The notes beneath the pieces were generated by a model, which was given only the letters and a program-made list of their open reading frames with translations, was not told where the DNA came from and did not search any database. Shown here in pieces: positions 15,490 to 33,743 of a stretch of 64,000 bases of DNA. Within the stretch, counting starts at the first letter, position 1. Each line of letters begins with the position of its first letter. This DNA is from Pseudoflavitalea sp. G-6-1-2 (GTDB lineage Bacteria; Bacteroidota; Bacteroidia; Chitinophagales; Chitinophagaceae). The translations under genes and the position numbers were made by a program. The DNA is taken from contig NZ_JABBGB010000002.1 of assembly GCF_012927185.1 (NCBI RefSeq), positions 806,001 to 870,000 of the forward strand, given 5' to 3'.

Positions 15490-15495
15490 CAGAAG

Positions 15496-15527
15496 AAGGA
15501 AGTACAGAATTGTGCTTCCTTTTTTTA
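15496..15527 (+). terminator. terminator of tRNA-Val
   Basis: An 11-bp hairpin (AAGGAAGTACA at 15496-15506 with TGTGCTTCCTT at 15511-15521, one G-T pair, GAAT loop) ends in a T run. It lies 7 bp after the tRNA. Confidence 0.8.
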
Positions 15528-15653
15528 TTAGACGAAAAGCCGCGTTCGGTGCGAATAGAGGCTCTCCCTTTAAAAGTGAATTTTTCCAGGAAGGTCGAAC
15601 CATTGGAGAAGATTATTCCCGCATAGGGGCAAATGGGAATGCTACATAAGGAC

Positions 15654-18600
15654 TTACACTTTTTTCAACAGCAATTCAGGTAGGATTATTTTCGATTCCT
15701 TGTCCTTTGCATCATCTTTCCAGTACACAATAAAGTTTACTTTGGCTTCGGCAATATAGAATCCTTTATCAGCACGCTCTTTCAAAACAACCCTGAATTT
15801 TTGGGAGTATTTACAAACCAGGTCGCCATGGGAATTTCCCAGTCCTTCTTCCAGTATTTGAAGGGATGCCCCGCTATGAAGATTGTTTATTCGATGTTGT
15901 ACAAATTCAAAATAGCCCAATTGCACATCCCGGTGCGTGAGAAAAATGGCTACTTGTTGAGGTTCATGGTAAGAGTTTCGATCTTCTTTATAGACTAGTT
16001 CTTCTGAATAAAAAGGCTTTAAATAATTGCCAGTGTAATGTATCGATAAATTTGTCTTGGCTCGGGTGATGGCTACATAAAATTGTCGTTTATCCTCATC
16101 GGTTTCTGGGTTAAAGTTTCTTAATAACAGGTAAATATTATCAAACTCTTTTCCTTTCGCTTTATGAATAGTGGAAGCATATACTACCTCAGAATCTATA
16201 CTCAGAAAATCTTCCACTTTTGATTCAAATAGGAAAGACTTCCAATCGCTCTTGTATTTCCTCGCCGTATTTACAACTTCAAAAGATTTGATCAATGCAT
16301 TCACCAGTTCCTTCTTTGCACTGGCATTGATATGTGCATTTAACTGGCGTTTTGCATTTATCCAGTCCTCTTCTGTTATCAATGGAGTGTCAGTGTTGCC
16401 GTTGATGATATCCGAAAAATAACGCAGCTCATATAAATTACTCAAACTAAATCCATCATTCGATTGAATCACTTTTGCCTGCACACCCCGTAGCAATAAC
16501 AAACCAGCCAGTAACATGGCATCTTCATTTGTTTTGGTAAGCACACAGGTGGAGCCTGAAAGTGCCGCTTTGCTGATAAGATCCGAAACGGGAACAATCA
16601 AGTTGTTAGTTGCATATGCCGCTATTTCGATTTGTCCGTTTCCCCGTTGTTTCGCAAAACATGCCTCGGTTTTCAACCGGTTATTAATTGTCGTAGCCCA
16701 GGTGTTGGCAAATGAAACGATATTTTCTTTGCTCCGGTAGTTTTCTGTTAACTCATATTTAACTGCGGCTTTTTCGGTAATCAGTTGTTGCATGTATACT
16801 GCATCCGCGCCCCTGAATCCATAGATGTTCTGGTCGTCATCCCCCACGAGTATGACCCGCATTTCTTCATTTTGTTCCATCAGTCCCTTTACCAGTTCAT
16901 ACTCTTCCTTATTCATATCCTGTGCCTCATCTACCACCAACACGGTTTTGGTAATCCGAAAAGTTTCAATTTCACCTGATCTTATTTTTTCTACAGCCGT
17001 ATTGATAATGTTTCCTGCTTCTAACAGGGTCCCAACTCTTCCAAGAAGGTCGAAACAGTAAGAGTGAAAAGTTTTTATTTCAATAAAGTTAGCCGCATTG
17101 CCGATGAGTTCAATAAGGCGCTTTTTAAATTCAGTGGCGGCGGCTCTTGAGAAAGTAAGCATCAGTAATTGCTCATGCTTAACATCTTCGGTTAGCAGAA
17201 GAGAAGCCAGCTTGTGCACCAGCAACCTAGTTTTACCACTCCCAGGACCGGCAGCAACTACAATATATTGATTAGCCGAGTCATTAATAATTTGCAATTG
17301 AGCCGGGGATAAAGCTCCGAACAATTTCATGAACTTTTCCGGCGTTAAGGTTCGTTTGATTTCATCTTGACGACTACCCGGAAAATATTTTGATAAAAAA
17401 GACGAATAATTCAGCCTGAAATAATCATCTACAAATTGCAATGCTTCATTATAATTGCGAATCATTTTTTTAGCATATTCCCCAACTATATGAATCTGCT
17501 GAACTTTTTGCTGGTAAAACTGCTTTAACTTTTCATAATCACTCTCTTTATATTGTATCCGGTTGTTCTTTTCTACTCGGTCAATGGTGAGTTTATTATG
17601 GACTACCAGAAATCCGCCTTCAATCTTAATGGCCTCAATTCTTGAGAGGTAAAACAGGGTGTCTTCTATATCGTCAAAAGTAGCTTTTGAAAAAAACATT
17701 CCCAGCTCTTTTTCTGCCATCTCCTTTAATTCCTGTACCGAAAATTCAATTAACACCTCCTCTTGTTTATTATCCGCACCTGATAATTCTGTCGCTTTTT
17801 TGTAGAGGTACTCTGTAACCAGCTTTGCAAACAAATGACGTTTCTCCTGTTTTTCCCGAAACTCAGATCTGTCAATAAACAAAGATATCTGTACATGATT
17901 CCTGGAATATTCGAGATTTTGTCGCTTAATCCAGTTTTTGATCGACCAGAAGTTAATGATAGTCTTAAGCTTGTTGAGAGAACTATCTTTGACACCTGAT
18001 TGAAGAAACAATTCGATGATTTCTTTTAAATGATACTCTGCTTCTCCGTCTTTTAGTTGTGCCAGTAAAAGTTCTTCCTGCTTTCTGAAGCTTTCCACAA
18101 TGGTTAATGACTTATTAACCGAATCTGCTTTTTTTATGAATGCGGTGAGATCTCTTGCCTGTGCTAATATTTTTTCTTCCCGCATCAATTCAATGATGCG
18201 GATCACTTCTTCTTTTACGATTCCTAACTGGTCAGAGATATAGTCTATCCTAGATTCAGCAATTTCGTCAGTGGAAAGTCTTTTACTTTTACTTGAAAAC
18301 AATTTTTTGATGATGCGAACTGCTTTTACTTTTTGTATATCTGAAAATTTTTCGGAGGAATTGATTTTACCAATGGCTTCCTGCGCATTTTTACTAAGAA
18401 TACTGTTAGCGAAAATTCTAGGCATATTTTGCCCACGCTTCAAGTAACCGGCATCTTCCAGGGCTGCAATGGCTGTAGTTACTCTTGTTTCGATTTCGAC
18501 GACACCATCATCCCATCCTGCCTTCCTGGCAATCTCTAACGCAGAATTGGATGCCTTATCCCTTGTTTTCGTTAACTCTTTAATTGCTTTCCAGATTTGA

Positions 18601-20462
18601 TTGATTTCTTTACTGCTGATTTTTGTCTGGTTCAGCAAAATGAAATGTTTATCTAAGTCTTCTTCATTAAACAATACATAGCAATCAGCATTAATATTTT
18701 CATCACGGCCCGCTCTTCCTGCTTCCTGCACATAGTTCTCGAGTGAATCAGAAATATCATAGTGTATCACGGCCCCTACATCGCTTTTATCAACCCCCAT
18801 ACCGAAGGCCGAGGTAGCAACCATAATGTTTACTTCACCGGACATGAAGTTATTTTGATTCTGAGATTTTTCATCCTTTTCCATTTTCCCATGGTAGGGC
18901 TTGGCGATAAAACCATCATCACTTAGTCGTTTAGCAAGTTTATACGCCCTTTTTGTACGAGATACATAAACAATGGTAGGACAGCCCTTCGTTTCAATGA
19001 TGCTCCTTAGTTGGTTATACTTTTCTTCTTCATTATCTTTCCGATAAACACTGTATTGCAAGTTGGTTCTTGAAGCATTAGCACGAAATACTTGTAAGCT
19101 TAAATTTAATTTCTCTTTGAAATAAGATTTAATATCCTCAATTACTTTTTGTTTAGCGGTGGCGGTAAAGCAGGAAACGGGTATGGTATAATCGAGCCCT
19201 TTCTTTTGCTGTAACGCCTTGATAAAATCGCCAATATACAAGTAATCAACCCTGAAATCCTGCCCCCAGGAAGAGAAGCAGTGCGCCTCATCAATCACAA
19301 ACCTTGTGATCTTTCTTTTTAATAATAGTCTCTCAATTGTAACTGACCGAAGCGATTCTGGAGATATATACAACAGGCTGGCAAAACCATTTTCTATCCT
19401 TTCAATAGCTTTACTACGTTCAATAGGATCTAGCAGTCCATTAATTGTTACTGCTTCTGTAATACCTTTTTTTTCCAGGTTATCTACCTGGTCTTTCATC
19501 AAAGACTGCAAAGGAGAAATTACAACAGTTAAGGCTTTGGCGTTCTCACCACTCATTAATGCAGGAACCTGAAAGGTGATTGACTTTCCTCCACCAGTTG
19601 GAAATACAGCTAGTATCGATTCGCCACGTATGGCAGCATTTACTGCATCTTCTTGTAATGGTTCACTTCCGTAAGTGCGAAAGCTTGAAAAACCAAAATG
19701 TTTTTTTAATGCAGGAATAGGATCAAGCGCCAATTTACAATACTCACATCCTTGTATACACGGGTTATTTCTCATTAAAAAAAGAAATCGTTCCACATCC
19801 GGGTAATTTTTTAACACCCAAGGAGGAGTAATTGAATATCGGTCATTACAGTTTAACAATGCTAATGCATACGCGAAAGCGATGGGTGAGGTATGTATGA
19901 GTGACTGAAGATCGCTTGCATCACAGATTTTGCCTTTAAATCTTTTCCGGATGGTAACCAGCAATTGCTCTTTGCCAGTTGAAGCAGTATAATTTAAGTA
20001 CTTGAAGAAATTACCAAACCCTCTTTTATCACATAAAAGCAGGTACAATATTTCTTTAAACTCATCATCCAGATTTTGAAAAGCTCTTACTTCATCAAAA
20101 AATAAGTGCTTTGCTTTTATAGCATCATTCAACGGATTATTTAATTCGTCTGTTTGAAGTTTGTCATCCTTCAACAGGTGGTGATAAGGTTGCTGAGGGA
20201 ATAATAATGGAGAAAATAGCAGTGTGTCAATAGCCTTATCCAGTCCCCATTCATTATTCCCGAAATATTTTTGTAAATAAATTAGGTCGTGGACTAAAAT
20301 ATTGTGCCCACAAATGAACGTTGAATGTTCAATAAAACTCTTGAATTCGTTGGGCTGGTTTTTATGGAAGCTAGATTCATCTGACAAAACACAACCTATA
20401 TCAAGCAACTGTTTGCTTGCCGGGTTAACTTCAATATCAAAATAAGCAATAAGGCTCTTCAT
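15654..20462 (-). CDS. DEDD exonuclease - RecQ helicase - UvrD helicase fusion
   Basis: This 1602-residue protein joins three DNA-processing modules. Residues about 1-130 resemble a DnaQ-like 3'-5' exonuclease (FDIEVNP with D9 and E11; GHNILVHD near 52; a later Asp). A short Cys cluster (CIQGCEYC, 235-242) precedes a complete RecQ helicase at about 260-620 (PTGGGKS at 288-294, DEAH at 391-394, QEAGRAGRD). Winged-helix-like and linker regions follow. A UvrD/SF1A helicase occupies about 1045-1470 (GPGSGKT near 1066, VVDEAQD near 1177, GDDDQNIYGFRGAD near 1209, FYVAITRAK near 1455). It may act in repair or in defence against foreign DNA; the latter is inferred from context. The gene is visibly more AT-rich than its neighbours, stands alone and is next to a tRNA, all signs of transfer. 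Confidence 0.88.
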   Translation of the reverse strand: MKSLIAYFDIEVNPASKQLLDIGCVLSDESSFHKNQPNEFKSFIEHSTFICGHNILVHDLIYLQKYFGNNEWGLDKAIDTLLFSPLLFPQQPYHHLLKDDKLQTDELNNPLNDAIKAKHLFFDEVRAFQNLDDEFKEILYLLLCDKRGFGNFFKYLNYTASTGKEQLLVTIRKRFKGKICDASDLQSLIHTSPIAFAYALALLNCNDRYSITPPWVLKNYPDVERFLFLMRNNPCIQGCEYCKLALDPIPALKKHFGFSSFRTYGSEPLQEDAVNAAIRGESILAVFPTGGGKSITFQVPALMSGENAKALTVVISPLQSLMKDQVDNLEKKGITEAVTINGLLDPIERSKAIERIENGFASLLYISPESLRSVTIERLLLKRKITRFVIDEAHCFSSWGQDFRVDYLYIGDFIKALQQKKGLDYTIPVSCFTATAKQKVIEDIKSYFKEKLNLSLQVFRANASRTNLQYSVYRKDNEEEKYNQLRSIIETKGCPTIVYVSRTKRAYKLAKRLSDDGFIAKPYHGKMEKDEKSQNQNNFMSGEVNIMVATSAFGMGVDKSDVGAVIHYDISDSLENYVQEAGRAGRDENINADCYVLFNEEDLDKHFILLNQTKISSKEINQIWKAIKELTKTRDKASNSALEIARKAGWDDGVVEIETRVTTAIAALEDAGYLKRGQNMPRIFANSILSKNAQEAIGKINSSEKFSDIQKVKAVRIIKKLFSSKSKRLSTDEIAESRIDYISDQLGIVKEEVIRIIELMREEKILAQARDLTAFIKKADSVNKSLTIVESFRKQEELLLAQLKDGEAEYHLKEIIELFLQSGVKDSSLNKLKTIINFWSIKNWIKRQNLEYSRNHVQISLFIDRSEFREKQEKRHLFAKLVTEYLYKKATELSGADNKQEEVLIEFSVQELKEMAEKELGMFFSKATFDDIEDTLFYLSRIEAIKIEGGFLVVHNKLTIDRVEKNNRIQYKESDYEKLKQFYQQKVQQIHIVGEYAKKMIRNYNEALQFVDDYFRLNYSSFLSKYFPGSRQDEIKRTLTPEKFMKLFGALSPAQLQIINDSANQYIVVAAGPGSGKTRLLVHKLASLLLTEDVKHEQLLMLTFSRAAATEFKKRLIELIGNAANFIEIKTFHSYCFDLLGRVGTLLEAGNIINTAVEKIRSGEIETFRITKTVLVVDEAQDMNKEEYELVKGLMEQNEEMRVILVGDDDQNIYGFRGADAVYMQQLITEKAAVKYELTENYRSKENIVSFANTWATTINNRLKTEACFAKQRGNGQIEIAAYATNNLIVPVSDLISKAALSGSTCVLTKTNEDAMLLAGLLLLRGVQAKVIQSNDGFSLSNLYELRYFSDIINGNTDTPLITEEDWINAKRQLNAHINASAKKELVNALIKSFEVVNTARKYKSDWKSFLFESKVEDFLSIDSEVVYASTIHKAKGKEFDNIYLLLRNFNPETDEDKRQFYVAITRAKTNLSIHYTGNYLKPFYSEELVYKEDRNSYHEPQQVAIFLTHRDVQLGYFEFVQHRINNLHSGASLQILEEGLGNSHGDLVCKYSQKFRVVLKERADKGFYIAEAKVNFIVYWKDDAKDKESKIILPELLLKKV

Positions 20463-20652
20463 TGAAATCAGACCTGTTTTAGGTATCCTAAAATAGTTTA
20501 AATCTTTTCATTTTCAAAGATTTAAGTACAATTCACTCGTTCCGTGAAAAACACCCAAATCCGAAGTGTTTTTCACCTTACTTTATTTCAGATTCAATAT
20601 GTAGCTGTCCATTAATGACTTAAGATGATATTTAGGCCGAAGCCCCCTTATC

Positions 20653-20686
20653 TGGTTCGACAAATCTCCGGCAGACTCCCACAGAA
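20653..20686 (+). repeat. tRNA 3'-end-like remnant, possible attachment-site relic
   Basis: The 12-mer ACTCCCACAGAA at 20675-20686 is identical to the tRNA-Val 3' end and its flank (15483-15494). GGTTCGA at 20654-20660 matches the T-arm (15468-15474), but the gap between the two blocks is six bases longer than in the tRNA. No complete tRNA can be folded here. Such a partial copy is expected where an element entered the 3' end of a tRNA gene, or from an old degraded tRNA. Confidence 0.5.
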
Positions 20687-20717
20687 AAAGCCTCGCAATT
20701 TGCGGGGCTTTTTTTAT
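20687..20717 (+). terminator. terminator following the tRNA-like remnant
   Basis: AGCCTCGCAA pairs with TTGCGGGGCT (one G-T pair) and is followed by a run of T. Its place right after the tRNA-like remnant mimics a tRNA terminator. Confidence 0.7.
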
Positions 20718-20764
20718 TCCTTCTATTCCTGCTTTAAGATTCCAGGCGCAGTTAACGCAACTAA

Positions 20765-20893
20765 CTACTCTCCTCTTCCATCTTCGTTAGGTATTGACTT
20801 TGAAATTTCAGCATCTCCATGCCCGGTTGCAATTATTTCATTGTCCTCCCCTCTCCCTTTTGCGTACAGAGCAGACCGATAGCGCCTGATCAT
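20765..20893 (-). CDS. possible small protein, 42 residues
   Basis: This short minus-strand frame, from an ATG at 20893, encodes a charged peptide beginning MIRRYRSALYAKGRGEDN and ending in DGRGE. Composition and codons look protein-like, and the frame stays open further upstream. I do not recognise it and see no clear promoter or ribosome site. It lies in the 650-bp gap between the helicase fusion and the oxidoreductase gene, together with the tRNA-like remnant and its terminator, and could be the tail of a degraded gene. The rest of the gap (20894-21116) shows only an A/T-rich hairpin and no further gene. Confidence 0.3.
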   Translation of the reverse strand: MIRRYRSALYAKGRGEDNEIIATGHGDAEISKSIPNEDGRGE

Positions 20894-21116
20894 TTCCCGA
20901 TTATTCAACAGAGTAACCCCACAAAAAATATTGTTGTTTTGTGTAGCTGAAACGCGCTCCTATACGTTACACCACCTACGCAAAAAACCCAGATTTATCA
21001 ATCTTTTTGAAGCGCAAACATTTCCCGATCTGTCTTTTTGATTTAGTATTTATCTCCTATTTTTAATAGATTAAGAAGCTGCAATCAGGTCCTTTATATT
21101 GAACAGGAAATAGAAT

Positions 21117-23333
21117 ATGATCAATAATAAATTGGCGGACAAGGATATTCTACAGGCAATGCTGGTGCCTAATCATCGATGGACATATGCCATAGGATGT
21201 TTTGATAAACGCATTACAATTTACTCCCAACAAATACGTGCTTTCAACCTGGCTTATGCATTAATCAAAGAACAGGTTGTAAAAAAAGATTCTTCTGTAG
21301 CCATTATCGGAGGAGGCATTGCAGGCATCACGATTGCCGCAGCATTGTGTGCAGATACCAACGTGTTCTTATTCGAACGAATGAACAACCTCTGTTATCT
21401 TCAGCGTGGAGACAATAACAGGTATATTCACCCGAATATTTACGACTGGCCGCTCAATGATGAATATAAGGATGATGCCACTGAACTGCCTTTTATGAAC
21501 TGGAGTGCCGGCTCCGGAGATCATATCGTTCGCCAGCTGGACGTAGAGTTCAATAAATTCAAGGACCGTATCAGGATCTTTAACAATCGCGAAGTAGTTC
21601 AGGTGCAGGAAAAAAGCAATAAAGTAGAACTCAGTTTTATCGGAACAGGAGAATTTGCGAAAAAAACATATCCGAAATTAGATTTCAAGACCGTTATCTA
21701 TGCCGGAGGTTTTGGCATTGAACAACAAAAATATTCAACCAATCCCGAAAATTCATACTGGAGGTGCGAAGCACTGCACCAGGAGCAATTGATACCTACT
21801 GAAAATGGAAAACGTTACGCCATTGTCGGTACGGGCGATGGGGGCACCATTGATTGCGCGCGTGCCTATTCAAATGCATTCGATCAGGGCAAATTCATAA
21901 AAGCTACTTTGGCAGATCATCACATACTGAAGTTTGTACATGAAATGGCCCGGATCGACAAGTCGGCACTGGAAGCTGAGATGAAACACAAAAGTGATCC
22001 ACCTGCTTCCGGCGAACCATTTGAAATGAGCGAGTTCCTTTATGAACAATACAGTGAAATCTATATCGAACCGGGCCTCATCGAAAAAACGCTGAAAGGA
22101 GGCCGAAGAAACGACAAACCAGTGAAGCTGTATGGTTTATCGAAGTATCCGCTGTCACTGGATACAGCACTGATCAACCGATACTTTATTTTTATTCTGC
22201 TTCGTAACGGAAGCATTGAATATCATCAAAAAAAATTCGACAGAAACGATAAGATTCAATTGGAAAGTGAAGAGTTCCATGTAATCGACAGACGCGGACC
22301 TGTTCCCGCTTACTCAACACTTTTCAAAACTGTGCCGCCGAAAACATCAGACCCCGACGATTTGCTGAATCAGCTTTGCAAAACCAAGCTCTGGGAAACT
22401 GAACTTGATTTTTTTCAGCACACGTTACCCGCAGACGAAGAAGTTCGGATATCGATATTTTACGATAAAAGGCATAAAAATTACAGGCAGCACGTATCTC
22501 ATATTACAGCAGAGATAAGAGCCTTAGGTGCACATATTGGTTCACGATTCGCATTCGCCGAGTACCATATCGAGGCTTCCCCTACCGGCGTTGCCTCAAA
22601 CGTAGATCATATAAAGTCCTGCCTGCAATCAGATCAATCGAAAATATCGATCTTGCTTTCCTCCAATTGCCTGGCATTGGGACATGAGATACTGAGCAAT
22701 AAACGCAACCTCATCATGATCGGCGGCAGCAGATCGATGAACCTGGAGTATCCTATATTGAAAGAAGAATTTCCGGCGCTGTCCATTTTAGGAATTTACC
22801 AGAAAATAAAAATGGATAAAGTAATAAAATACATTGCCCTTGCATTCCCCGGCGAACGGATAGGATTCGTATGCAACAGTCAATTCCCTTTCGATATCAA
22901 GTTCTTTGCAAAAATGGCCGATTGCCTTCACAATCATGCCGAGCATAAAGACGCATTTGAGTTAGTGCGAATCGACGTATCGGGCCCAACTATCACAAAT
23001 GAAATGCACAGCTGCAAAGTATTGACCGGTCGGTTATTCGTTCACCTTAACGGCGGTTTCTTTTATCAGAATAAGCCTTTCATAAGCTGTTACGAATCCG
23101 ATGAGGAAAGAGGCGCTATTATGACGCTATCGAACTGGTTCGATGATACAGCAAAAAAAGTGGTTGAGTATGGCATCAGAGAAATGATTGAAGCAAAACC
23201 AGCTGTGAAGCATGTGAAATTTATTAAAGAGCCTGTTAACTATATCATTCCCCGAAATGCTGCAAAGTTTGGCATTACGTTTAATGAGGCTATAACGTAT
23301 GTCAGCCGCAAACGGCAGCAGAACAACCGCTGA
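21117..23333 (+). CDS. FAD/NAD(P)-binding oxidoreductase fused to a solute-binding-like domain
   Basis: This 738-residue protein appears to combine two folds. The N-terminal part (about 58-420) is a dinucleotide-binding oxidoreductase: GGGIAG at 65-70 with an acidic residue ending the second strand (LFERM, E87). A second Rossmann glycine motif (IVGTGDGGT) lies near 234-242. The C-terminal 250-300 residues resemble the cytoplasm-facing equivalent of an ABC-type substrate-binding protein (ABC_sub_bind family). The grounds are the alternating strand-helix order and the ending IIPRNAAKFGITFNEA, which is close to the ...NLKAAKKLGI... end of that family. No signal peptide or membrane helix is seen, so the binding domain would act inside the cell. 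It is followed after 29 bp by an ATP-grasp gene. The specific reaction is unknown. Confidence 0.65.
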   Translation: MINNKLADKDILQAMLVPNHRWTYAIGCFDKRITIYSQQIRAFNLAYALIKEQVVKKDSSVAIIGGGIAGITIAAALCADTNVFLFERMNNLCYLQRGDNNRYIHPNIYDWPLNDEYKDDATELPFMNWSAGSGDHIVRQLDVEFNKFKDRIRIFNNREVVQVQEKSNKVELSFIGTGEFAKKTYPKLDFKTVIYAGGFGIEQQKYSTNPENSYWRCEALHQEQLIPTENGKRYAIVGTGDGGTIDCARAYSNAFDQGKFIKATLADHHILKFVHEMARIDKSALEAEMKHKSDPPASGEPFEMSEFLYEQYSEIYIEPGLIEKTLKGGRRNDKPVKLYGLSKYPLSLDTALINRYFIFILLRNGSIEYHQKKFDRNDKIQLESEEFHVIDRRGPVPAYSTLFKTVPPKTSDPDDLLNQLCKTKLWETELDFFQHTLPADEEVRISIFYDKRHKNYRQHVSHITAEIRALGAHIGSRFAFAEYHIEASPTGVASNVDHIKSCLQSDQSKISILLSSNCLALGHEILSNKRNLIMIGGSRSMNLEYPILKEEFPALSILGIYQKIKMDKVIKYIALAFPGERIGFVCNSQFPFDIKFFAKMADCLHNHAEHKDAFELVRIDVSGPTITNEMHSCKVLTGRLFVHLNGGFFYQNKPFISCYESDEERGAIMTLSNWFDDTAKKVVEYGIREMIEAKPAVKHVKFIKEPVNYIIPRNAAKFGITFNEAITYVSRKRQQNNR

Positions 23334-23362
23334 GTTATTAAATTGAACACCGATTAATCAAT

Positions 23363-24082
23363 ATGGATACTCCAGTAACACTACTAATCCCTAAAAAAAC
23401 CGATATCGAGCATGAGCAAATATTCGATGCATGGGTTAAGAATGGCGGGAAGATCAGAAGACTCGATAAGTTTTGGATCAAAGAGGAAGATCTCAGCCAA
23501 CAAAGAATAGCAATATACGGCAATCAGGCATTTGCGCTGGTTGTAGCTCAACTGTACAATGTAGAGCTACTATCGCCAGATGATTCTTTAATTGCAAGAC
23601 TGGATGAAAAATACACTAAAAGACATATTCAATTAGAACAGCTCGGTGATCTTAAAGAATCAGACTTCCCCACTTTCATCAAACCAGTGATTCCAAAAAT
23701 GTTTCTTGCAGGTGTTTTTGGAACCCTGGAAGAATTCAGTAAGAATACGGCAGGACTGCAGACAACGGAAGAAATATTGATTTCAACCATCATCGATAAT
23801 ATTCAGGCCGAAGCCAGGTGTTACATCAAAGACGGAGCAGTGCTGGATATTGCTCTTTACGAAGGATCCGCCGATGTAAAAACAGGAGAAGCGTTTGCCG
23901 CAGATTTCATCGCTCACAATGGCACACTCCTGCCCAGAGTTGTAGTGGTGGATATTGCATACAGTGAACAAACCGGATGGTTCGTTCTTGAGTTCAACGC
24001 CTGCTGGGGCGCCGGACTAAATAACTGCAAGGCCGAAAAGGTAATTGATTGCATTAAGGGAGCAACAGTCAGCAACTCGTAA
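23363..24082 (+). CDS. ATP-grasp domain protein (DUF4343 / R2K-clade)
   Basis: This 239-residue protein fits the small ATP-grasp family once called DUF4343, now placed in the R2K clade. The clearest sign is the C-terminal block LEFNACWGAGLNNCKAEKV, with the metal-binding Glu-x-Asn and the family-specific WGAGLN. An upstream FPTFIKPV segment supplies the ATP-binding Lys of the grasp fold. ATP-grasp enzymes join a carboxylate to an amine or thiol using ATP; published genomic analyses link R2K members to conflict systems and peptide modification. It is the second gene of a two-gene unit with the oxidoreductase fusion, and a hairpin follows 29 bp later. The target is unknown. Confidence 0.75.
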   Translation: MDTPVTLLIPKKTDIEHEQIFDAWVKNGGKIRRLDKFWIKEEDLSQQRIAIYGNQAFALVVAQLYNVELLSPDDSLIARLDEKYTKRHIQLEQLGDLKESDFPTFIKPVIPKMFLAGVFGTLEEFSKNTAGLQTTEEILISTIIDNIQAEARCYIKDGAVLDIALYEGSADVKTGEAFAADFIAHNGTLLPRVVVVDIAYSEQTGWFVLEFNACWGAGLNNCKAEKVIDCIKGATVSNS

Positions 24083-24111
24083 GGAATACACTCACTGATC
24101 TTATTGATCTC

Positions 24112-24135
24112 AAAGCCCCGCAGTTGCGGGGCTTT
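24112..24135. terminator. strong hairpin between convergent units
   Basis: AAAGCCCCGC (24112-24121) pairs perfectly with GCGGGGCTTT (24126-24135) around a 4-base loop. The T tracts on both sides are short. It probably ends the ATP-grasp unit on the plus strand and the DoxX gene on the minus strand. Confidence 0.6.
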
Positions 24136-24180
24136 GATTGTACTGCATAAACCGAAGTTCGGGTTTCTGAACCCATTCGA

Positions 24181-24582
24181 TCAAGGTGTATAAGTAACTT
24201 TCACTTTCTTGTCTGTGAGAAATAGTACCACCGCAGCAATACAGCAAAAAAGCGAATTGTAATAGTGATGATATTCCTCATTCGCCATATGTACCGTAAA
24301 CGCTCCTATCGCAAATGGAAACAGCCAGAGAATGGACAGTCGCAGAATTTTCGGATACGCAAGCCCTATCAGCAATCCTATCGTCCCCACTAACTCTGCA
24401 TACCCGATAAATAAAGTCCAGTTGGTATTGAAACCAAATCCGGCCATTCCTTTCATCATGCGTGGCCATTCAAAAACCTTAAACAGTGCAGCATAACCGA
24501 AGATAAACACAAAACCGGTGTAGAATATGCCGCGGATAATATTCAGATCTCCTTTCAACAGGTTCGATAATTTCGTTTTCAT
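24181..24582 (-). CDS. DoxX-like membrane protein
   Basis: This integral membrane protein of 133 residues has four hydrophobic helices, in the style of the DoxX/DoxD-like family. The typical features are the first helix with FGYAALFKVFEWPRMM, then GYAELVGTIGLLIGLAYP. The function of such small proteins is mostly unknown; some are linked to redox or quinone metabolism. I chose the ATG at 24582 (MKTKLSNLL), 13 bp after the preceding gene; an ATG at 24609 is in frame but would overlap that gene. It forms a minus-strand pair with the membrane gene upstream, divergent from the AraC regulator, which may control them. Confidence 0.72.
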   Translation of the reverse strand: MKTKLSNLLKGDLNIIRGIFYTGFVFIFGYAALFKVFEWPRMMKGMAGFGFNTNWTLFIGYAELVGTIGLLIGLAYPKILRLSILWLFPFAIGAFTVHMANEEYHHYYNSLFCCIAAVVLFLTDKKVKVTYTP

Positions 24583-24595
24583 AATTTCTGATTTT

Positions 24596-24937
24596 CTAGA
24601 TAATGCCATATGTTTTGTTCATTGCCAGCAAGAGCACGGGAATAAGAGAACAATAAAGCAGGTTGTAAAACTGCTGATCTTGTTTTCTGAATAACGAAAT
24701 AACAGTTACCGGAACCAGCCAGATAAAAGGAATGGCCGAAAACGGCGCATAGAAAATTCCGATAAAAAGCGCAGCAGCTCCGAGCAACAGCAGAACTCCT
24801 GAAATTTTGTTCCCGGCAGACAGGTTATTGAAACCCATCCAGCCTGCGATAAAAATATACCCCAGATAAAACAGCCAGTACACACAGAAAGTGTCACTGT
24901 GAATGTGAATGAGAAAGCTCTCTAAAATCGTTGTCAT
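24596..24937 (-). CDS. small membrane protein, unknown function
   Basis: This 113-residue protein has about four membrane-spanning stretches (from VYWLFYLGYIFIAGW to LIPVLLLAM) and no recognised motif. It is the first gene of a two-gene minus-strand unit with the DoxX-like protein and lies 156 bp from the divergent AraC gene. The shared intergenic region is a likely place for regulation by that regulator. I do not recognise the family. Confidence 0.65.
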   Translation of the reverse strand: MTTILESFLIHIHSDTFCVYWLFYLGYIFIAGWMGFNNLSAGNKISGVLLLLGAAALFIGIFYAPFSAIPFIWLVPVTVISLFRKQDQQFYNLLYCSLIPVLLLAMNKTYGII

Positions 24938-25093
24938 AAATTGTTTTTGAAATTACCCTTCAAAATTATTATGACCGTATCAAGCAAAATAGCTCTCTGA
25001 GAGCAAAAAATAGTCCATTCCGGTCATTCATTTATTTTCTTCTTCTTAATTTTACAGGGCATCGGCAATCACAATCATCAACTTCGACTCTCT

Positions 25094-26083
25094 ATGATTT
25101 TCGAATACATGCAAGATGGCACACTGAATTTTCTGGAAGCGTTTGCAGCAAGGACTGGTTCAGAAATAACGCATAATCAGATCGCCATTTCGGGATCTCC
25201 TGGAAAGGGAACGATCATTATGGCCGATATGGAAGCGGGACTGAAGATGGCGATATTTCATCTTACTCTTCAAGAGGATCTTGTATTCAGAGGAAACGTA
25301 TCGCAATCAAGACCTGATGTGCTTTCCATCAGACTGCAGGTAAGCACAGCAGCCAGCCATCATATCCCTTTTAAACTTCAGCTGAATGAGTACGCGCAGC
25401 CGGATACACTGATACAACTTGCTTCAAACGATATAGCCTCCGATATAAGATTTGCAGCGGGCTCCACCATCTTCGCTACCCTTATTCTGGTGCAGCGCGA
25501 TTTATTGAAAAGTTTACTGGGAACCAACGATCATGCGCTTGTTAAACATATCATCTGCAATAAAGGTCCTCACTTCTACAACGAGGCCATGACGCAGGAG
25601 ATACAATGCGTGCTGGCCCTGATATTCAAAACAAACGACAACGAATTGTTCGGGAATTTATATTACAGAATAAAAGCAACCGAACTGATCTATCAGCTTT
25701 TTTACAATCTCGCCAAAAGAATGGACACACCTTGCATTTCAATCCGCAAGGATGATCTGAGCAAGGTGCACGAGGTGAAAGACCATATCCTTTCCGACCT
25801 GAGCATAGTTCCCGAACTCCATGCACTGGCAACCATGACGGGCATGAGCGAGTCGAAGCTGAAGCGGATATTCAAACAGGTTTTCGGCAACAGCATCTAT
25901 AACTATTACCAGACAGCGAGAATGAATGAGGCGGCTTACCTGATCAGGAAAAATAATCTATCAATTTCGGAAGTGGGATATAGGTTGGGATTTTCAAACC
26001 TGAGTCATTTTTCGAGATTGTTTGATAAGCATATTGGGATTAAGCCGAAGAAGTATTCGCTGCTGAAAGGAGAGAAAGTATAA
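25094..26083 (+). CDS. AraC-family transcriptional regulator
   Basis: This 329-residue regulator has an N-terminal effector/dimerisation domain (about 1-215) and a C-terminal pair of helix-turn-helix motifs. The first HTH is around 240-265 (LHALATMTGMSESKLKRIFK) and the second around 285-320, with the family signature ISEVGYRLGFSNLSHFSRLF and KPKKY. It is divergent from the two small membrane genes and convergent with nothing nearby. Its ligand is not evident. Confidence 0.9.
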   Translation: MIFEYMQDGTLNFLEAFAARTGSEITHNQIAISGSPGKGTIIMADMEAGLKMAIFHLTLQEDLVFRGNVSQSRPDVLSIRLQVSTAASHHIPFKLQLNEYAQPDTLIQLASNDIASDIRFAAGSTIFATLILVQRDLLKSLLGTNDHALVKHIICNKGPHFYNEAMTQEIQCVLALIFKTNDNELFGNLYYRIKATELIYQLFYNLAKRMDTPCISIRKDDLSKVHEVKDHILSDLSIVPELHALATMTGMSESKLKRIFKQVFGNSIYNYYQTARMNEAAYLIRKNNLSISEVGYRLGFSNLSHFSRLFDKHIGIKPKKYSLLKGEKV

Positions 26084-26208
26084 AACAATCTTTTATTTCA
26101 TTCAAACTCAATTTGAATCTGTATTTTCGTTTTCCAGCCCTACAATTAGTTTTATTGAAACCCTAAATCCGCTTGCATGGAGCTTTCCATTGCCGGCCTT
26201 TTACTGCT

Positions 26209-29200
26209 ATGAAATGGCTTTTCCTATTGTCACTTTGCACATTATTCTTCGGCGTTTCTGTTATTGCACAAGACAATCCAAAAGAAAACAACAGGATTCT
26301 CCCTCCTTCTCCTACTGCTGCGTCATTGGGAAAATATGGAGAGATTCCTGTTTCGCTTTACACAGGAACACCTAATATTTCAATACCCGTTTACAATATT
26401 CAATCGGGAAGTTTATCAATTCCTGTAGGTGTCTCATATCATACAGGAAGTGTAAGACCCAATGATATTCCAGGCTGGGTCGGGCTAGGTTGGTCATTGT
26501 CTGCAGGTGGAGTGATAACCAGAACAGTGAAGGATATACCTGATGATTCATATGGATTCAGCACAGGTTCGGGAACAGGATTTTATTATGATCTCATTGC
26601 AGACAACCCCAAGTTCCATTATGTGTTTGATGACTTAGCAACCTATCCACCTCCTTCGAGAACTACTGCATTTTTCTGGGCCAATGAAGGAAGAGAAAAT
26701 GATCAGAAACCGGATGATTTTAGTTTCAATTTTGCAAACTTTTCAGGGCAGTTTTTTTTCGGTCAGGATGCAAAAATCCATCAACGATCTCAGCAGCCTC
26801 TAAAAATTGAATTTGAACTGGCACAAGTTCCTGAAACCGGAATACTTGGAGTGAGTTCAAGCAATCACATCAACCGATGGATCATTACAACAGGTGAGGG
26901 CGTCAAATATTATTTCGACGCTCATGAATGGTCTGCCTCCCAGGTGGGGCAGGGACATATGGCCTATATTTCCAGCTGGTATCTCACATCCATCATATCT
27001 CCTACAGGCGAAACCGTTACTTTGGAATATACCAATACGCCGGGGAAATATCGCGCGAAAGAATCAAGAAATGAAAAAATAGGATACCTGATTCCGAGTG
27101 GCAGCGACAACAATTTCATTGATCTTTCACAGAAATCCAAAAACGAAAGTCTCGATCAGGTAATCTATCTGAAAAAGATAAATTTCAGCAATGGATACAT
27201 GACGTTCAATACGGTAAAACGCAATGACCCAATGTATCTGCCCCGGGGTGTTACGCCCAGCACACTGGAAGAACAAAAACTTGATCGCATTGACTTATTT
27301 TCAAATGCGGAAAATGCACCTCAAAAATTGCTATCATGGAAATTCACTTACGACGAGTACAACCGGTTAAAACTTACATCAATCACTAAAACAGGCAACG
27401 CAGAAACGGCTGAGGAAGTTACGTCATTGGAGTACGACCCTACAGCATTTGAAGGGCATACAGGAGATGCCACTTATCCTAACCCATACGACATAAATTC
27501 GGTCGATCATTGGGGGTATTTCAATGGAATGGGCACAGCTAATAAGATACCTGTTCACTATAACCCAAGAAATCTAAACCAAAAAGTGGGTACTGCAAAC
27601 AGAGCAGCCAATCCTAATTTGGCAAAAGCCAGCCTGCTAACCAAAATCACCTGGCCTACAGGAGGTTTCACTGAGTTTGATTTTGAACCACATTCGTTTG
27701 GCACAGTGGTAGAAATAGACCCAAACCCCAGACCACCTGAGCAGGCGTGGAAGCTTCTCGCTGATTACTATATGAGCGGCCCTGGCGGAACAAACGGATA
27801 CATGTCGTGCCCGGGGGATTATGCCAATATAACTTTTACCCTCCCCGAGCCTACCGTTATCAGAAAGATTATTTCCGACAAGTGGGTTCAAAGCGATCTC
27901 AGGCCTTCGTGCAGAACAGAATACGAAACATTTCAGATGGACGTGACAGATTACCTGCAGGCAGGTACTTATAATCTCAATGAGGTACTTGGCAATCGAA
28001 TATCTACCGATTGTGCCGGACTCTCAACCGACCCTGTAACAGAAAACAATGAATTGATCTGCCTTGACCACACCAGATACGCACTTTTTGTTCCCAATAC
28101 CTATAACACTGATGGTCCCGGCTCAGGCATAGTAAGTCGCCCCACAGGTGGCGCAAGAATCCGTCAGATCAGATCATTTGATGGCATCAAAACCACTTTG
28201 GTAAAAACCTACGAATACCTAAGCGGCAATTCATCGAGTGGGGTATTAAATAAAGAGCCCATTTATATGGAACCCGATCTGACCTTTCAACTGATTGGTG
28301 CTCCTCCTGCAGCAATAGCTGGATGGACACTGGCATCGTATCCTATAAAGGGTATGCCGGCAGGCAGTCATATCGGATATTCAGAAGTAACTGAAAAACT
28401 GGAAGACGGCAGCAAGACTGTGTATTTTTTTACCACCTATTCAGATCATGCTGATGGGAAGCCGTATGAAATATTCAAGATGGAATATGGGCCAACAATC
28501 AACAACGATGCAATGAGAGGCCTCCTTACCAATACATATGTGTATAACAATGCAGGGAATATAGTAAAATCAGTTTCCACAGACTACGATTGGAGCCAAA
28601 ACGAATATATGGGAAGAATGGTGGACAATCAATACATTTTCCTCGCCTCCGGCACCAATTCTCCGGAAGGGACTACAGCCTCGTCCAGATCGCTAATCCC
28701 ATCCCGATTCGTGGCAAAAAAATCGGAAACTGAAAGAATATATAACTCCAATGACCAAACGTCATTTCTGGAAAACGTAACGGAGTACAGGTACAATCTG
28801 GATAACTTACAGATCAAAGAAGTAAAAACTACCAACAGCAAGAAGCAAACCATTCTCAGCCAGACAAAATACCCGGTAGATTTCACCGGAGGAATCTATG
28901 ACCAGATGAAAGCACAAAACATAATTCTGGTTCCAGTAGAACAAAAAACACTGATCGGTCAACCATCATCAGAGCTGACTTTAAAAAGAACCGATTTCCA
29001 GATGGTTCCGGGAAACACATTCATCAAACCAAGTCAATCCAGTTCATCCACCAAAGGGAATACGCCAACTGTTGATGTAACATTCGACAAATATGACAAT
29101 CAGGGCAATATTCTTCAACTTACCCCCAAAAACGCCCCAACCACCAGTTATATCTGGGCATACGGTGGCACCATACCTATCGCAGAAGTAAAGAATGCCA

Positions 29201-30384
29201 AAGTGAATGACATTGCCTATACATCCTTCGAGACAAGTGAAAACGGTAACTGGCAATTTACTGATGCAACGCGTACAACCACCGAAGCAGTTACCGGCCA
29301 CAAATCGTACAAACTCACCAGCGGAACACCAATATCCAAAACAAGATTGACCGCAACAGACAAATACATCATCAGCTACTGGTCGAAAAACGGGGCTGCA
29401 AATGTAAACGGAACAGCAGCTTCAGCAGTGCTGCAAAAAAATGGCTGGACCTGTTATCAGCATCATCTTTCAGGCGCTTCAACTGCAACAATTGCAGGCA
29501 GCAATATTCTGATAGACGAACTTAGATTATATCCAGCAGGAGCCATGATAACAACGCTCACCTACGATCCGCTGGTAGGCACCACCAGCCAGTGTGATGC
29601 AAGAAATGCAGTTTCTTATTATGAATATGACGACCTGCTTCGGTTGCTTCGGATCAGAGATGCGGACAAAAACATTCTGAAGCAATATCAATACGTTTAT
29701 AAATCATATCCGCACACGAACCCTATATGGGAAAGCACGGGCATCACCAGATGCAAACCCTGTGAAGCCAACAACAATTATGTATTGAACATTACGCAGA
29801 AACAGGAAAGAGATATGAACCCCGGCAGCAGCACTTATAATCAAACCAGATGGATCGATGGCACGGCAGGAAACTGTGTAATAACCGCAGACTGGCAGAA
29901 TACGGCTACTGCTGCACGTTGCAAAAAGTATGCAGGCATATACAATACAGGGGTTCAGGAACGAGAACAAAAAGATTTGAACCCCTGCAGTCCTACCTAT
30001 AACCAAACAAGATGGATTGACCTGGGCATCAACCTTTCAGCCTGTCCACTGCCCAAACCCTATGTAAAATTCGGGCTGGAGAATTATACTCAATACGGAT
30101 CAGAGCATCGGGCAGACCTTGTTGTAAGATTTTACTATGATGAGGCGTTGACCATTCCTTACGAAGCGAAAAATATTTCTTTGAAGTTCAGGGAAGAAGT
30201 ATCTGGCAGTCTGTGCAACTGCACACTTGAATCGAACCCATATACAATTTTGTGTAATGGCTCTGAAACCATTTTGTTTGAACAGGTTGCAATAGGCCGC
30301 GAGCAGCATGGTTCAGGTGAGGTAGACTATATATCCACTTATTATTATCTACTCACGGGTGAAACGTATTATGGAGGGGATTAA
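26209..30384 (+). CDS. large exported Rhs-like protein
   Basis: This 1391-residue secreted or surface protein begins with a clear signal peptide (MKWLFLLSLCTLFFGVSVIAQ); I therefore start at 26209. The N-terminal part has the Bacteroidetes Rhs/YD opening (GEIPVSLYTGTPNISIPVY; PGWVGLGWSLSAGGVI). At least one YD repeat is seen near residue 1135 (YEYDDLLRLLRIRDAD). The C-terminal 150 residues carry two copies of a Trp-centred repeat (TYNQTRWID near 1205-1220 and 1260-1275) and a final Cys-containing domain. I see no Rhs core ending (DPxG...) and no toxin tip, so it is not an obvious polymorphic toxin. A terminator follows. Confidence 0.7.
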   Translation: MKWLFLLSLCTLFFGVSVIAQDNPKENNRILPPSPTAASLGKYGEIPVSLYTGTPNISIPVYNIQSGSLSIPVGVSYHTGSVRPNDIPGWVGLGWSLSAGGVITRTVKDIPDDSYGFSTGSGTGFYYDLIADNPKFHYVFDDLATYPPPSRTTAFFWANEGRENDQKPDDFSFNFANFSGQFFFGQDAKIHQRSQQPLKIEFELAQVPETGILGVSSSNHINRWIITTGEGVKYYFDAHEWSASQVGQGHMAYISSWYLTSIISPTGETVTLEYTNTPGKYRAKESRNEKIGYLIPSGSDNNFIDLSQKSKNESLDQVIYLKKINFSNGYMTFNTVKRNDPMYLPRGVTPSTLEEQKLDRIDLFSNAENAPQKLLSWKFTYDEYNRLKLTSITKTGNAETAEEVTSLEYDPTAFEGHTGDATYPNPYDINSVDHWGYFNGMGTANKIPVHYNPRNLNQKVGTANRAANPNLAKASLLTKITWPTGGFTEFDFEPHSFGTVVEIDPNPRPPEQAWKLLADYYMSGPGGTNGYMSCPGDYANITFTLPEPTVIRKIISDKWVQSDLRPSCRTEYETFQMDVTDYLQAGTYNLNEVLGNRISTDCAGLSTDPVTENNELICLDHTRYALFVPNTYNTDGPGSGIVSRPTGGARIRQIRSFDGIKTTLVKTYEYLSGNSSSGVLNKEPIYMEPDLTFQLIGAPPAAIAGWTLASYPIKGMPAGSHIGYSEVTEKLEDGSKTVYFFTTYSDHADGKPYEIFKMEYGPTINNDAMRGLLTNTYVYNNAGNIVKSVSTDYDWSQNEYMGRMVDNQYIFLASGTNSPEGTTASSRSLIPSRFVAKKSETERIYNSNDQTSFLENVTEYRYNLDNLQIKEVKTTNSKKQTILSQTKYPVDFTGGIYDQMKAQNIILVPVEQKTLIGQPSSELTLKRTDFQMVPGNTFIKPSQSSSSTKGNTPTVDVTFDKYDNQGNILQLTPKNAPTTSYIWAYGGTIPIAEVKNAKVNDIAYTSFETSENGNWQFTDATRTTTEAVTGHKSYKLTSGTPISKTRLTATDKYIISYWSKNGAANVNGTAASAVLQKNGWTCYQHHLSGASTATIAGSNILIDELRLYPAGAMITTLTYDPLVGTTSQCDARNAVSYYEYDDLLRLLRIRDADKNILKQYQYVYKSYPHTNPIWESTGITRCKPCEANNNYVLNITQKQERDMNPGSSTYNQTRWIDGTAGNCVITADWQNTATAARCKKYAGIYNTGVQEREQKDLNPCSPTYNQTRWIDLGINLSACPLPKPYVKFGLENYTQYGSEHRADLVVRFYYDEALTIPYEAKNISLKFREEVSGSLCNCTLESNPYTILCNGSETILFEQVAIGREQHGSGEVDYISTYYYLLTGETYYGGD

Positions 30385-30411
30385 GCGATAACAGAATGAA
30401 TGACACAAAAT

Positions 30412-30454
30412 AAGATGGGCGGAACTCGAATGTTCTGCCCATCTTATTTTTATT
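30412..30454 (+). terminator. terminator after the Rhs-like gene
   Basis: A 14-bp stem (30412-30425 with 30432-30445, one G-T pair) with a 6-base loop is followed by ATTTTTATT. Confidence 0.8.
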
Positions 30455-30470
30455 GGGATATCTCAAAAAA

Positions 30471-30598
30471 ATATCACGGGCAAGACTACCCGTGATATCA
30501 TATCCCCATTGCTGGGGCCTTTCATTCAAATTACCATTCCCGGCAGGAATACCGGCAATGTACTAATCGAGTCCGTTAACTCATTAACCTTATCCTAA
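30471..30598 (+). repeat. non-coding repeat A, copy 1
   Basis: The unit opens with a 10-bp hairpin (ATATCACGGG / CCCGTGATAT) around the loop CAAGACTA. A CCCC/GGGG hairpin, the block ACCGGCAATGTACTAATC, a small GAGT/ACTC hairpin and TTATCCTAA follow. Copy 2 at 31022 keeps the loops and the order but changes the stem bases. It lies in the gap before the first Xre gene. It could be a structured RNA or a protein-binding element. Confidence 0.55.
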
Positions 30599-30713
30599 AA
30601 TGAAAATAGTGTACGATGATAAAGAAAGATGTGTGCGAATATTTTTACAGTACATTTTAATAGATTGATTATAAAGGATTTTAAAGACGAAATTTATTAG
30701 GCAAATTCGTAGC

Positions 30714-30986
30714 ATGGGACGTAAGGCAAAGAAAAGAGTTATTGTACCTACCATATCCGAAAAGGAAATCGACTCCATCCATCTGGCAATTGGAAAAATC
30801 ATCAAAACAAAAAGGGAGGCGTTGGACTCCACCATCGACGATTTTGCCTATCAGGTAAATCTTTCCAGAAGCGGTTTGATAAGAATTGAAAAGGGGCAGG
30901 ATCTTACCATTCGCAGTCTGCTGAAAGTATTGCGTGGACTGAATATTACGCCAGATGAGCTCTTCCGCACAGTAACCGGAAAATAG
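30714..30986 (+). CDS. small Xre-family (HTH) regulator, copy 1
   Basis: This 90-residue protein is almost entirely a helix-turn-helix domain of the Xre/Cro type. The HTH core is DDFAYQVNLSRSGLIRIEKG at about residues 43-62, then the third helix region RSLLKVLRGLNI. It is a paralogue of the gene at 32616: both share the Asp-rich first helix, RSxLxRxxxG and LLKV blocks, and an identical GGCAAATTCGT just before the start (30700-30710 here). It may repress its own transcription or act on the flanking repeats; no toxin partner is adjacent. Confidence 0.82.
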   Translation: MGRKAKKRVIVPTISEKEIDSIHLAIGKIIKTKREALDSTIDDFAYQVNLSRSGLIRIEKGQDLTIRSLLKVLRGLNITPDELFRTVTGK

Positions 30987-31021
30987 GACTGCCTCTCTCC
31001 TTTTTATCGATTTTTTCAAAA

Positions 31022-31155
31022 AATCACCGGCAAGACTACCGGCGAATCTAATCACTCCCCATGCTCACATGGGGCCTTTCATTCATTGAACTATTCCCGA
31101 TAAGAATACCGGCAACGTACTAATCAAGTCCGTTAACTCATTAAACTTATCCTAA
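31022..31155 (+). repeat. non-coding repeat A, copy 2
   Basis: The same order of elements as copy 1: a CCGG/CCGG stem with the identical 8-base loop CAAGACTA (31031-31038), then CCCCATG/CATGGGG, CCTTTCATTCA, ATACCGGCAACGTACTAATC, a gap to CCGTTAACTCATTAAAC and TTATCCTAA. Loops and linkers are conserved while the first two stems differ in sequence. Confidence 0.55.
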
Positions 31156-31206
31156 TTGAAAAAAATTTAATGTTATAGCAACTCCATAAAGGAGCATATT
31201 TAATAA

Positions 31207-31272
31207 ATGGTTCCCAGCAGGATTACCAGGAACGAACTAAGTCAGAACCATTAACTCTTAAACCTTATCCTA
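31207..31272 (+). repeat. non-coding repeat A, partial copy 3
   Basis: Only the 3' half of the A unit is present: a TTCC-CAGGAA-like hairpin, then GTCAG, CCATTAACTCTTAAACC and TTATCCTA. It ends 37 bp before the first B element. Confidence 0.45.
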
Positions 31273-31309
31273 TAAAAAAATTTTGGAGAGTGAGCTGCAA
31301 TAAAAAAAT

Positions 31310-31497
31310 GGGGCGGCTCCATCTCTGTAGGAACGGCGCGGAAGCTGCCAGTACAGAGTTGATAGGAGCGCACCCCATCATTTTTGAATATGATGAAAGT
31401 GCGCGTTCTACTATCACTTGCCCTGTATAAGCTTCCGACTTTATCCAGCAAGAGTATAGCGAACACGACAATGAAGAACTAGTCTATTGAAGGTCGC
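31310..31497 (+). ncRNA. structured non-coding element B, copy 1
   Basis: This 188-bp element shares several long blocks with copy 2 at 32240 (GGCGCGGAAGCTGCC, GATAGGAGCGCACCCCAT, ACTATCACTTGCCC, AAGCTTCCGACTTT, AGCGAACACG, GGTCGCAAAA). It folds as a 5' hairpin (GGGG-CGG-CTCC), then a long rod: GGAAGCT pairs with AGCTTCC, GATAG with CTATC, GCGCAC with GTGCGC and ATCAT with ATGAT at the tip. A 3' hairpin follows (GCGA...CAAT/ATTG...TCGC). A further hairpin lies just downstream (31514-31538). I do not recognise an Rfam family. No protein-coding frame explains the conservation. Confidence 0.55.
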
Positions 31498-31513
31498 AAA
31501 AATACAGTAAAAA

Positions 31514-31538
31514 GAGCATCACTTATTGTAGTGTGCTC
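31514..31538. terminator. hairpin downstream of element B copy 1
   Basis: GAGCATCAC pairs with GTGTGCTC with one bulge. The T run is on the minus-strand side (CTCTTTTTAC), so it is a better terminator for leftward transcription, but it may also cap the B transcript. Confidence 0.4.
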
Positions 31539-31550
31539 TAATCAGTTATA

Positions 31551-31744
31551 ATAACCTTAACCTTGGCGAAAATAGTAAATATTATATTGAAAACACAATT
31601 CATTTATGTTTTTTCACATTAATACTTTGTTTTTATATAATTTGCTTGTGTTTTTGCACTGAAAATCAAATAATTAGCGGCCCTTATATTTGCTTCCGAC
31701 AAAATATGTCAGCGCCGAAACCGAAATACAATAACCTTAAGGTT
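31551..31744 (+). promoter_or_regulatory. candidate operator pair for the second Xre gene
   Basis: The decamer ATAACCTTAA occurs upstream of the gene (31551-31560) and again inside its first codons (31731-31740). The inner copy is part of a perfect 12-bp palindrome, AACCTTAAGGTT, at 31733-31744. Two sites flanking a promoter suit autoregulation by a dimeric HTH protein. This is inference from sequence only. Confidence 0.4.
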
Positions 31745-32023
31745 GTTATGGTTCAACATAACATGGACAATCGTACACTTGCGCAATTTTTAGACATGAG
31801 TGTGAATTCGATTTCCTTATGGAGAACCAACAAAGCTCAACCTGACCTGGAGACTATTCACAAAATAGCAGGATACTTAAAATGTGATCCGCGGGACATA
31901 ATTGCAACCAGAACATGGCCTGCCGGCCCATCTCAGGGCGAACTGGATATAGCCAAAAGAGATAAATTGAAACAAAAGCCCAAAAAGGCTGCGAAGAAAA
32001 CCTCAAAGAGGTCAAAAAGATAA
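31706..32023 (+). CDS. small Xre-family (HTH) regulator, copy 2, basic tail
   Basis: This 105-residue protein has a Cro/C1-type helix-turn-helix (NRTLAQFLDMSVNSISLWRTN, about residues 23-43; then TIHKIAGYLKCDPRDII) and a lysine-rich tail (KQKPKKAAKKTSKRSKR) that could add non-specific nucleic-acid binding. I start at 31706 (MSAPKPKYNN); a frame extending to 31646 lacks homology-like sequence. It is less related to the other two Xre proteins than they are to each other. It sits between the two B elements, with a candidate operator in front and inside. Confidence 0.82.
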   Translation: MSAPKPKYNNLKVVMVQHNMDNRTLAQFLDMSVNSISLWRTNKAQPDLETIHKIAGYLKCDPRDIIATRTWPAGPSQGELDIAKRDKLKQKPKKAAKKTSKRSKR

Positions 32024-32239
32024 GGCTCACTGTATCAGGTATACGCAGCAGACTATCTCTCAAGTTGCAACTGATCAACTAATATCATTTTCAAATTTTC
32101 ATCGATCTTACACCAGCATATTGTATTCCACAGGAATACCCATACACTTTACAATGCATTAGAGGCGCGATGTTTGCAATACCGCAGCAGAAGGTTGCGT
32201 TCAGATAAAGATTAAGTCGTTACAGAAGAGAAAGAAAAC

Positions 32240-32431: not shown

Positions 32432-32615
32432 AAAATTTTATTAAGAACATCCGATTCCCGAAATGTTCTGTCTGTTTATTTCATGTTTTAGAAAAGTAAA
32501 AATAATAAAACAACGCAAGTATAGTGTCATATATGACTCTTTATTTTTGAATTCTCAATAATAACGCTTCAAACATAGGATTTTACAGGTTGGTTTATTT
32601 GGGCAAATTCGTGGT

Positions 32616-33159: not shown

Positions 33160-33187
33160 TAAAAAAAGCAGAGACATTGCTCTGCTT
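33160..33187 (-). terminator. terminator of the lipoprotein gene
   Basis: AAGCAGAG (33166-33173) pairs with CTCTGCTT (33180-33187). Read on the minus strand it ends in seven T residues. The remainder of 32880-33239 shows nothing recognisable. Confidence 0.75.
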
Positions 33188-33728: not shown

Positions 33729-33743
33729 CTTTTAGTAAACCTG

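Follow-up and report, generated by a model that had tools for sequence, protein, structure and literature searches.

Described Systems Closest to the Locus

Thoeris and CBASS are known for a sensor-effector logic. In Lamassu, a "double-Rossmann dehydrogenase" has been named in a review among the LmuA effectors, the variable C-termini of which possibly serve in docking (PMC10586767). In the FMO-type LmuA, the C-terminal half is the CTD2 docking domain, as in L003 (PF20278, E 1.9e-79). Members of the R2K clade of ATP-grasp proteins have been predicted to have ATP-dependent peptide/amide ligase activity and to tag proteins, and a role of R2K.2 and R2K.3 in phage-host conflict has been proposed from genome context (PMC4431377).

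The locus described here lies in the window, a term we use for the whole stretch of 64,000 nucleotides that was analysed. The two genes that had been predicted at 21117-24082 are exact open reading frames, P1 (738 aa) and P2 (239 aa), separated by 29 bp and both on the + strand, as are all their features given below. The reading that we tentatively prefer is that P1 is a self-contained cytosolic sensor-effector in which a ligand of the C-terminal region would switch the oxidoreductase, with P2 acting independently.

The P1 Gene and Its Effector Domain

P1 (21117..23333) has been defined by its open reading frame, PADLOC, and profile comparison, and combines an LmuA-type double-Rossmann oxidoreductase domain with a region resembling ABC_sub_bind. 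It is present in one copy in the 6.1-Mb genome assembly. The effector domain, common to LmuA of Lamassu/ABC-3C, spans residues 7-366 (21135..22214), which match LmuA in PADLOC with an E-value of 2.3e-74; the match covers positions 3-353 of the 827 positions of PDLC03858 (LmuA). In Pfam, the N-terminal half of P1 is matched by generic FAD/NAD(P)-binding models alone.

Two motifs of the GxGxxG type are present in order, as for flavoproteins that bind two dinucleotides. The first is the GGGIAG motif named in the original prediction, located at residues 65-70 (21309..21326), and the second is GTGDGG at residues 238-243 (21828..21845). The glycines G65, G67, and G70 of the first motif are invariant in the ten relatives of alignment A1, as are G238, G240, D241, and G242 of the second, and P1 retains the residues that are invariant across these relatives, both nucleotide motifs included. 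By sequence, the first ~370 residues of P1 are assigned to the LmuA effector domain of the double-Rossmann kind (FAD plus NAD(P)-type), and the first half of the protein is, by family, a defence effector domain. The statement that no system of this kind had been described had overlooked this membership in a described Lamassu effector family.

The genes around P1 at 13.5-26.1 kb of the window encode a RecQ-UvrD helicase, the R2K protein, DoxX, AraC, and an aminoacyl-transferase. LmuB and LmuC have not been found by Pfam or PADLOC among the neighbours tested in this interval, and no other recognised defence gene has been shown beside P1.

Relatives of the LmuA-Type Domain

A tblastn search of plasmids returned 27 records, and the matches listed all cover the N-terminal half of P1 only. 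On plasmids of the Rhizobiales R. acidisoli, R. leguminosarum, S. meliloti, and A. fabrum, a middle component and then an AAA/SMC-type ATPase come after the LmuA-type gene; in places, a small hypothetical gene occupies the position of the middle component. The R. binae copy is interrupted by an IS and keeps the gene order of the other Rhizobiales plasmids. A Comamonas operon (L043) contains LmuA (E 9e-216), LmuC (5e-56), and LmuB (3e-259), and the LmuA-type locus of L002/L047 is flanked by conjugation-type genes, which are TraG- and relaxase-like by reading.

The LmuA-type domain has also been found without LmuB, and standalone genes are present in L004 and L036. On a rhizobial plasmid (L040:4923-8001) and on an IMG/VR contig (L086:3935-7053), the domain is fused to an unnamed module of ~250 aa, and a P-loop kinase gene (AAA_18) comes next; this arrangement may be a recurrent unit of two genes that lacks LmuB. 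In L036:4974-6969, the same module is encoded by a separate gene directly behind that of a 438-aa LmuA-type enzyme. The module of these three loci has the look of a GAF domain, an identity that no tool backed. Just upstream of the LmuA-type gene of the IMG/VR contig (L086:201-2825), there are a 560-aa deaminase and an ORF reading as a trypsin-like protease, possibly a small defence cluster.

Since the LmuA-type domain occurs without LmuB and joined to this other ~250-aa module, C-terminal swapping is habitual in the family, and P1 fits the pattern as a further swap. The same pattern lends support to a model in which the C-terminal module determines what activates an LmuA-type effector.

The Solute-Binding-like C-Terminus of P1

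The C-terminal half of P1 has no Pfam match at E ≤ 10, and PF04392 does not exceed its cut-off anywhere in the genome. A first ABC_sub_bind profile, built from 20 Bacteroidota domains, gives P1 an hhalign score of 37.0, whereas 60 shuffles reach no more than 22.3 and unrelated ORFs no more than 21.5. With a second profile, in which 12 binding proteins from other phyla were added to the first, the score is 44.4 (P 8e-6, probability 83.5%), and the controls reach maxima of 23.1 (100 shuffles) and 24.4 (188 unrelated proteins). A genuine binding lipoprotein among the controls scores 55.3 with this second profile.

The significant signal is confined to residues ~553-728 (22773..23300), which resemble profile positions 108-292, the second part of ABC_sub_bind. 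The preceding residues, ~440-552 (22434..22772), are a candidate first lobe that was collinear with ABC_sub_bind in the first run and is not significant on its own. The C-terminal motif of the family, iNxxxAxxlGIt, reads IPRNAAKFGITFNEAI in P1. These comparisons support a remote homology to ABC_sub_bind that is weak but real, and firm for the second half of the region. The ABC_sub_bind C-terminus of the original prediction can thus be retained for residues ~553-728, where the profile alignment stands above the controls, and not for Pfam or for the first lobe.

As had been predicted, P1 carries no signal peptide, nor is there a lipobox. The chain starts with the enzyme domain, and the hydropathy of the first 60 residues does not exceed 0.63 over 19 residues, leaving no hydrophobic stretch. 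Since P1 has no export signal, its sequence identifies it as a cytosolic fusion of an LmuA-type enzyme domain with a solute-binding-like region.

A rather improbable alternative is that the C-terminus is some other Rossmann-like or degenerate domain, such as a diverged docking domain, and that P1 is an orphan LmuA that has lost LmuB and LmuC. The missing Pfam match and the insignificant first half would agree with such a history, as would the single-sequence structure model of the C-terminus, which has a pLDDT of 34, and standalone LmuA-type genes are known (L004, L036). On the other hand, the collinear profile similarity clearly exceeds that of shuffled and unrelated proteins, and CTD2, which Pfam detects so strongly in L003, has no match in P1. 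P1 is best read as a known effector in a new architecture.

Searches for Further Fusions

A single-protein scan found no relatives of P1 in GTDB contigs, and the alignment scan, crowded by matches to the generic GxGxxG motif, returned at least one locus. When P1 was searched against 197 genomes of the family, matches were obtained in the genome of the window itself and in one other (G101) alone. The LmuA model of PADLOC gave generic FAD-enzyme noise in 395 genomes of the phylum, apart from the window itself, and in the same 395 genomes the C-terminus of P1 matched only itself. This C-terminus matched nothing on plasmids, even at E 5. Viral contigs contained FMO relatives only, none of them with R2K, and E. 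coli genomes showed no match at the DNA level.

The PF04392 matches in 218 genomes of the phylum are mostly ordinary exported binding proteins. Of the multi-domain PF04392 examples, the two inspected are not intracellular fusions: one is a membrane sensor kinase, the other an efflux gene of the outer membrane. A single 1271-aa frame with three tandem ABC_sub_bind domains has also been observed (L081; G385:C5:63060-65765). A second genome with a fusion of LmuA-type and ABC_sub_bind-like parts has not been found among the genomes searched. Therefore, the architecture of P1 is known from one protein, and it could be a chance fusion.

The R2K Gene P2 and Its Linkage to P1

P2 (23363..24082) matches the R2K_2 family PF18299 with an E-value of 9.4e-23 and a score of 81.2 bits, compared with a cut-off of 26.2. 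The R2K_2 domain, identified by Pfam and by its catalytic residues, spans residues 84-229 (23612..24049). The catalytic positions of the clade were taken from Burroughs 2015 (PMC4431377) for comparison, and K107, K112, E150/R152, D197, and E210-x-N212 are all present in P2. Judged by profile and residues, P2 is a true R2K_2/DUF4343 ATP-grasp protein with intact catalytic residues. This is the family that had been predicted for the second gene, and the association with conflict systems claimed for it is backed by the published genome-context proposal.

The strong hairpin predicted at the end of the pair is located at 24110..24137 (+ strand; -23.7 kcal/mol, z -5.65) and is a probable end of transcription. 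It is 28 bases long and was not called by the terminator scan, its T-tail being too short. P2 probably shares the transcript and the terminator hairpin of P1.

The closest ortholog of P2 found in an R2K profile search of 144 family genomes is in G116 (L119:6615-7331), with an amino-acid identity of 65.8%, and the DNA similarity of the two is limited to the coding sequence. This gene is located directly behind two near-identical copies of tRNA-Phe (L119:5459-7331), a position that suggests tRNA-targeted mobility of R2K genes. No P1-like sequence is present within about 6.6 kb of it, and P1 was not found in this genome, which falls among the 197 family genomes searched with P1. None of seven further R2K relatives (G464, a Streptomyces plasmid, G003, G103, G090, G097, and G086) has an LmuA-type gene beside it, and at none of 13 loci with relatives of the P1 enzyme domain was an R2K gene seen next to it. 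In G464 (L046:6002-13079), the R2K gene is located between two genes of RlaP RNA-repair nucleotidyltransferases, near ORFs that are RtcB- and Ro60/TROVE-like by reading.

Since the orthologous and related R2K genes examined have no P1-type neighbour, the adjacency of the pair is not conserved in these limited samples, which leave rare linkage elsewhere possible. The original prediction had taken P1 and P2 as one system, and this survey speaks against it. P2 is best read as standing next to P1 by co-location in a variable region, not as a required part, and as a predicted ligase that would be mobile, functional on its own, and independent of P1.

An unlikely alternative, drawn by analogy with Thoeris and CBASS, is two-gene signalling: the R2K ligase would sense infection and make an amino-acid or peptide conjugate, which the binding domain of P1 would read to turn on the oxidoreductase. 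The 29-bp gap, the shared strand and hairpin, the intact R2K active site, and the role proposed for R2K.2 in phage-host conflict (PMC4431377) are consistent with such a pair, and the P-loop kinase gene next to the LmuA-type domain in L040 and L086 offers a parallel. Against it, the closest R2K ortholog stands alone in a genome where P1 was not found, and the R2K relatives and effector-domain relatives examined never adjoin. That P1 and P2 together constitute an undescribed immune signalling pair, with a ligase-made amino-acid or peptide conjugate read by an intracellular periplasmic-type binding domain that turns on a Lamassu-family oxidoreductase, is quite unlikely.

Genomic Setting

The variable region extends from tRNA-Val to a conserved exonuclease gene at 33744 (15491..33743) and has been delimited by comparison with congeners and by GC content. 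One edge of the interval is the tRNA-Val at 15415-15490. In two congeners, the esterase, the transferase, and tRNA-Val are retained at one end and the exonuclease and 900-aa genes at the other; other genes lie in between, and RecQ, P1, and P2 are absent. In the window, the interval contains RecQ-UvrD, P1, P2, DoxX, AraC, and a large secreted-type ORF, and its third-position GC is 0.37-0.51, compared with 0.53-0.60 outside. The congeners and the GC content agree with the accessory segment that had been predicted ahead of the pair.

The helicase gene (15654-20462, - strand) encodes a 1602-aa fusion of RecQ-type and UvrD-type parts, has a low GC content of 0.38, and is absent at this place in the congeners. 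The PADLOC matches of its product (DpdF, PsyrT, GajB) concern helicase parts. The 3' end of tRNA-Val with a few further bases (ACTCCCACAGAA) occurs at 15483-15494 and again at 20675-20686, 5.2 kb away, so that the two copies bracket the helicase gene, and GGTTCGA is found shortly before both. The repeat is possibly a remnant of an old attachment site, a 12-base match not being significant by itself. A 1403-aa frame at 26173-30384 (+ strand) reads like a secreted Rhs/YD-type protein and has no Pfam match at E 0.001.

Proposed Mechanism

If P1 is a self-contained sensor-effector, we infer that a small molecule arising or altered upon infection or damage would bind between the lobes of the C-terminal region. 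Closure of the lobes, or oligomerisation, would then free the oxidoreductase, which would spend NAD(P)H or oxidise a cellular target, and the infected or stressed cell would stop. P2 would act independently, as a mobile gene that landed beside P1 in the variable region anchored by tRNA-Val.

A metabolic or biosynthetic role seems distinctly improbable. The two genes would here encode a flavin-dependent enzyme similar to N-hydroxylases and an ATP-grasp ligase that together make or detoxify a metabolite, with the binding domain holding the substrate. A partial model of the N-terminus, built from four sequences (pLDDT 44), finds FAD/NADP enzymes of the PDB as its best Foldseek matches, with the SidA ornithine hydroxylase first, at a TM of only ~0.2, and ATP-grasp enzymes are commonly biosynthetic. 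However, the sequence of the enzyme domain places it in the LmuA family of defence effectors, no further biosynthetic genes have been recognised nearby, and the pairing is not conserved. It is very unlikely that P2 modifies and restrains P1 in the manner of a toxin-antitoxin pair, by ATP-dependent peptide tagging, which the gene order and spacing and the protein tagging predicted for the R2K clade (PMC4431377) would allow, since the toxin gene would precede the antitoxin gene, an ortholog of P2 exists without P1, and the effector-domain relatives have no such partner.

If the self-contained reading of P1 is true, the Lamassu oxidoreductase effector would be separable from its SMC-type DNA sensor, and a small-molecule binding domain on the same polypeptide could control it instead. 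Solute-binding folds would then have been recruited as intracellular infection sensors, and P1 would offer a minimal, single-gene approach to the question of what the uncharacterised effector oxidises. The locus also indicates that adjoining "conflict" genes in islands are not necessarily partners.

Comparison with Known Systems

P1 shares with Lamassu/ABC-3C (PDLC03858, FMO-type LmuA) the whole N-terminal effector domain, with both motifs and the invariant residues, and an accessory, island-type location. Unlike these systems, it has no CTD2 and no LmuC or LmuB near it, and carries the solute-binding-like C-terminus instead. The likeness to ABC_sub_bind (PF04392) consists of the collinear profile match of residues 553-728, the C-terminal motif included. 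P1 differs from proteins of that family in remaining below the Pfam threshold, in its fusion to an enzyme, in having no signal peptide, and in having no recognised transporter genes adjacent. P1 shares no shown sequence family with Thoeris or CBASS, and neither a signal nor a synthase is known for it; it would resemble them, by analogy only, if a small ligand activates the fused effector. P2 agrees with ATP-grasp family 2 of R2K (PF18299) in its score above the cut-off and in the two lysines, ExR, D, and ExN. The P2 protein itself differs in nothing from other members of this family, and what is unusual is its neighbour gene.
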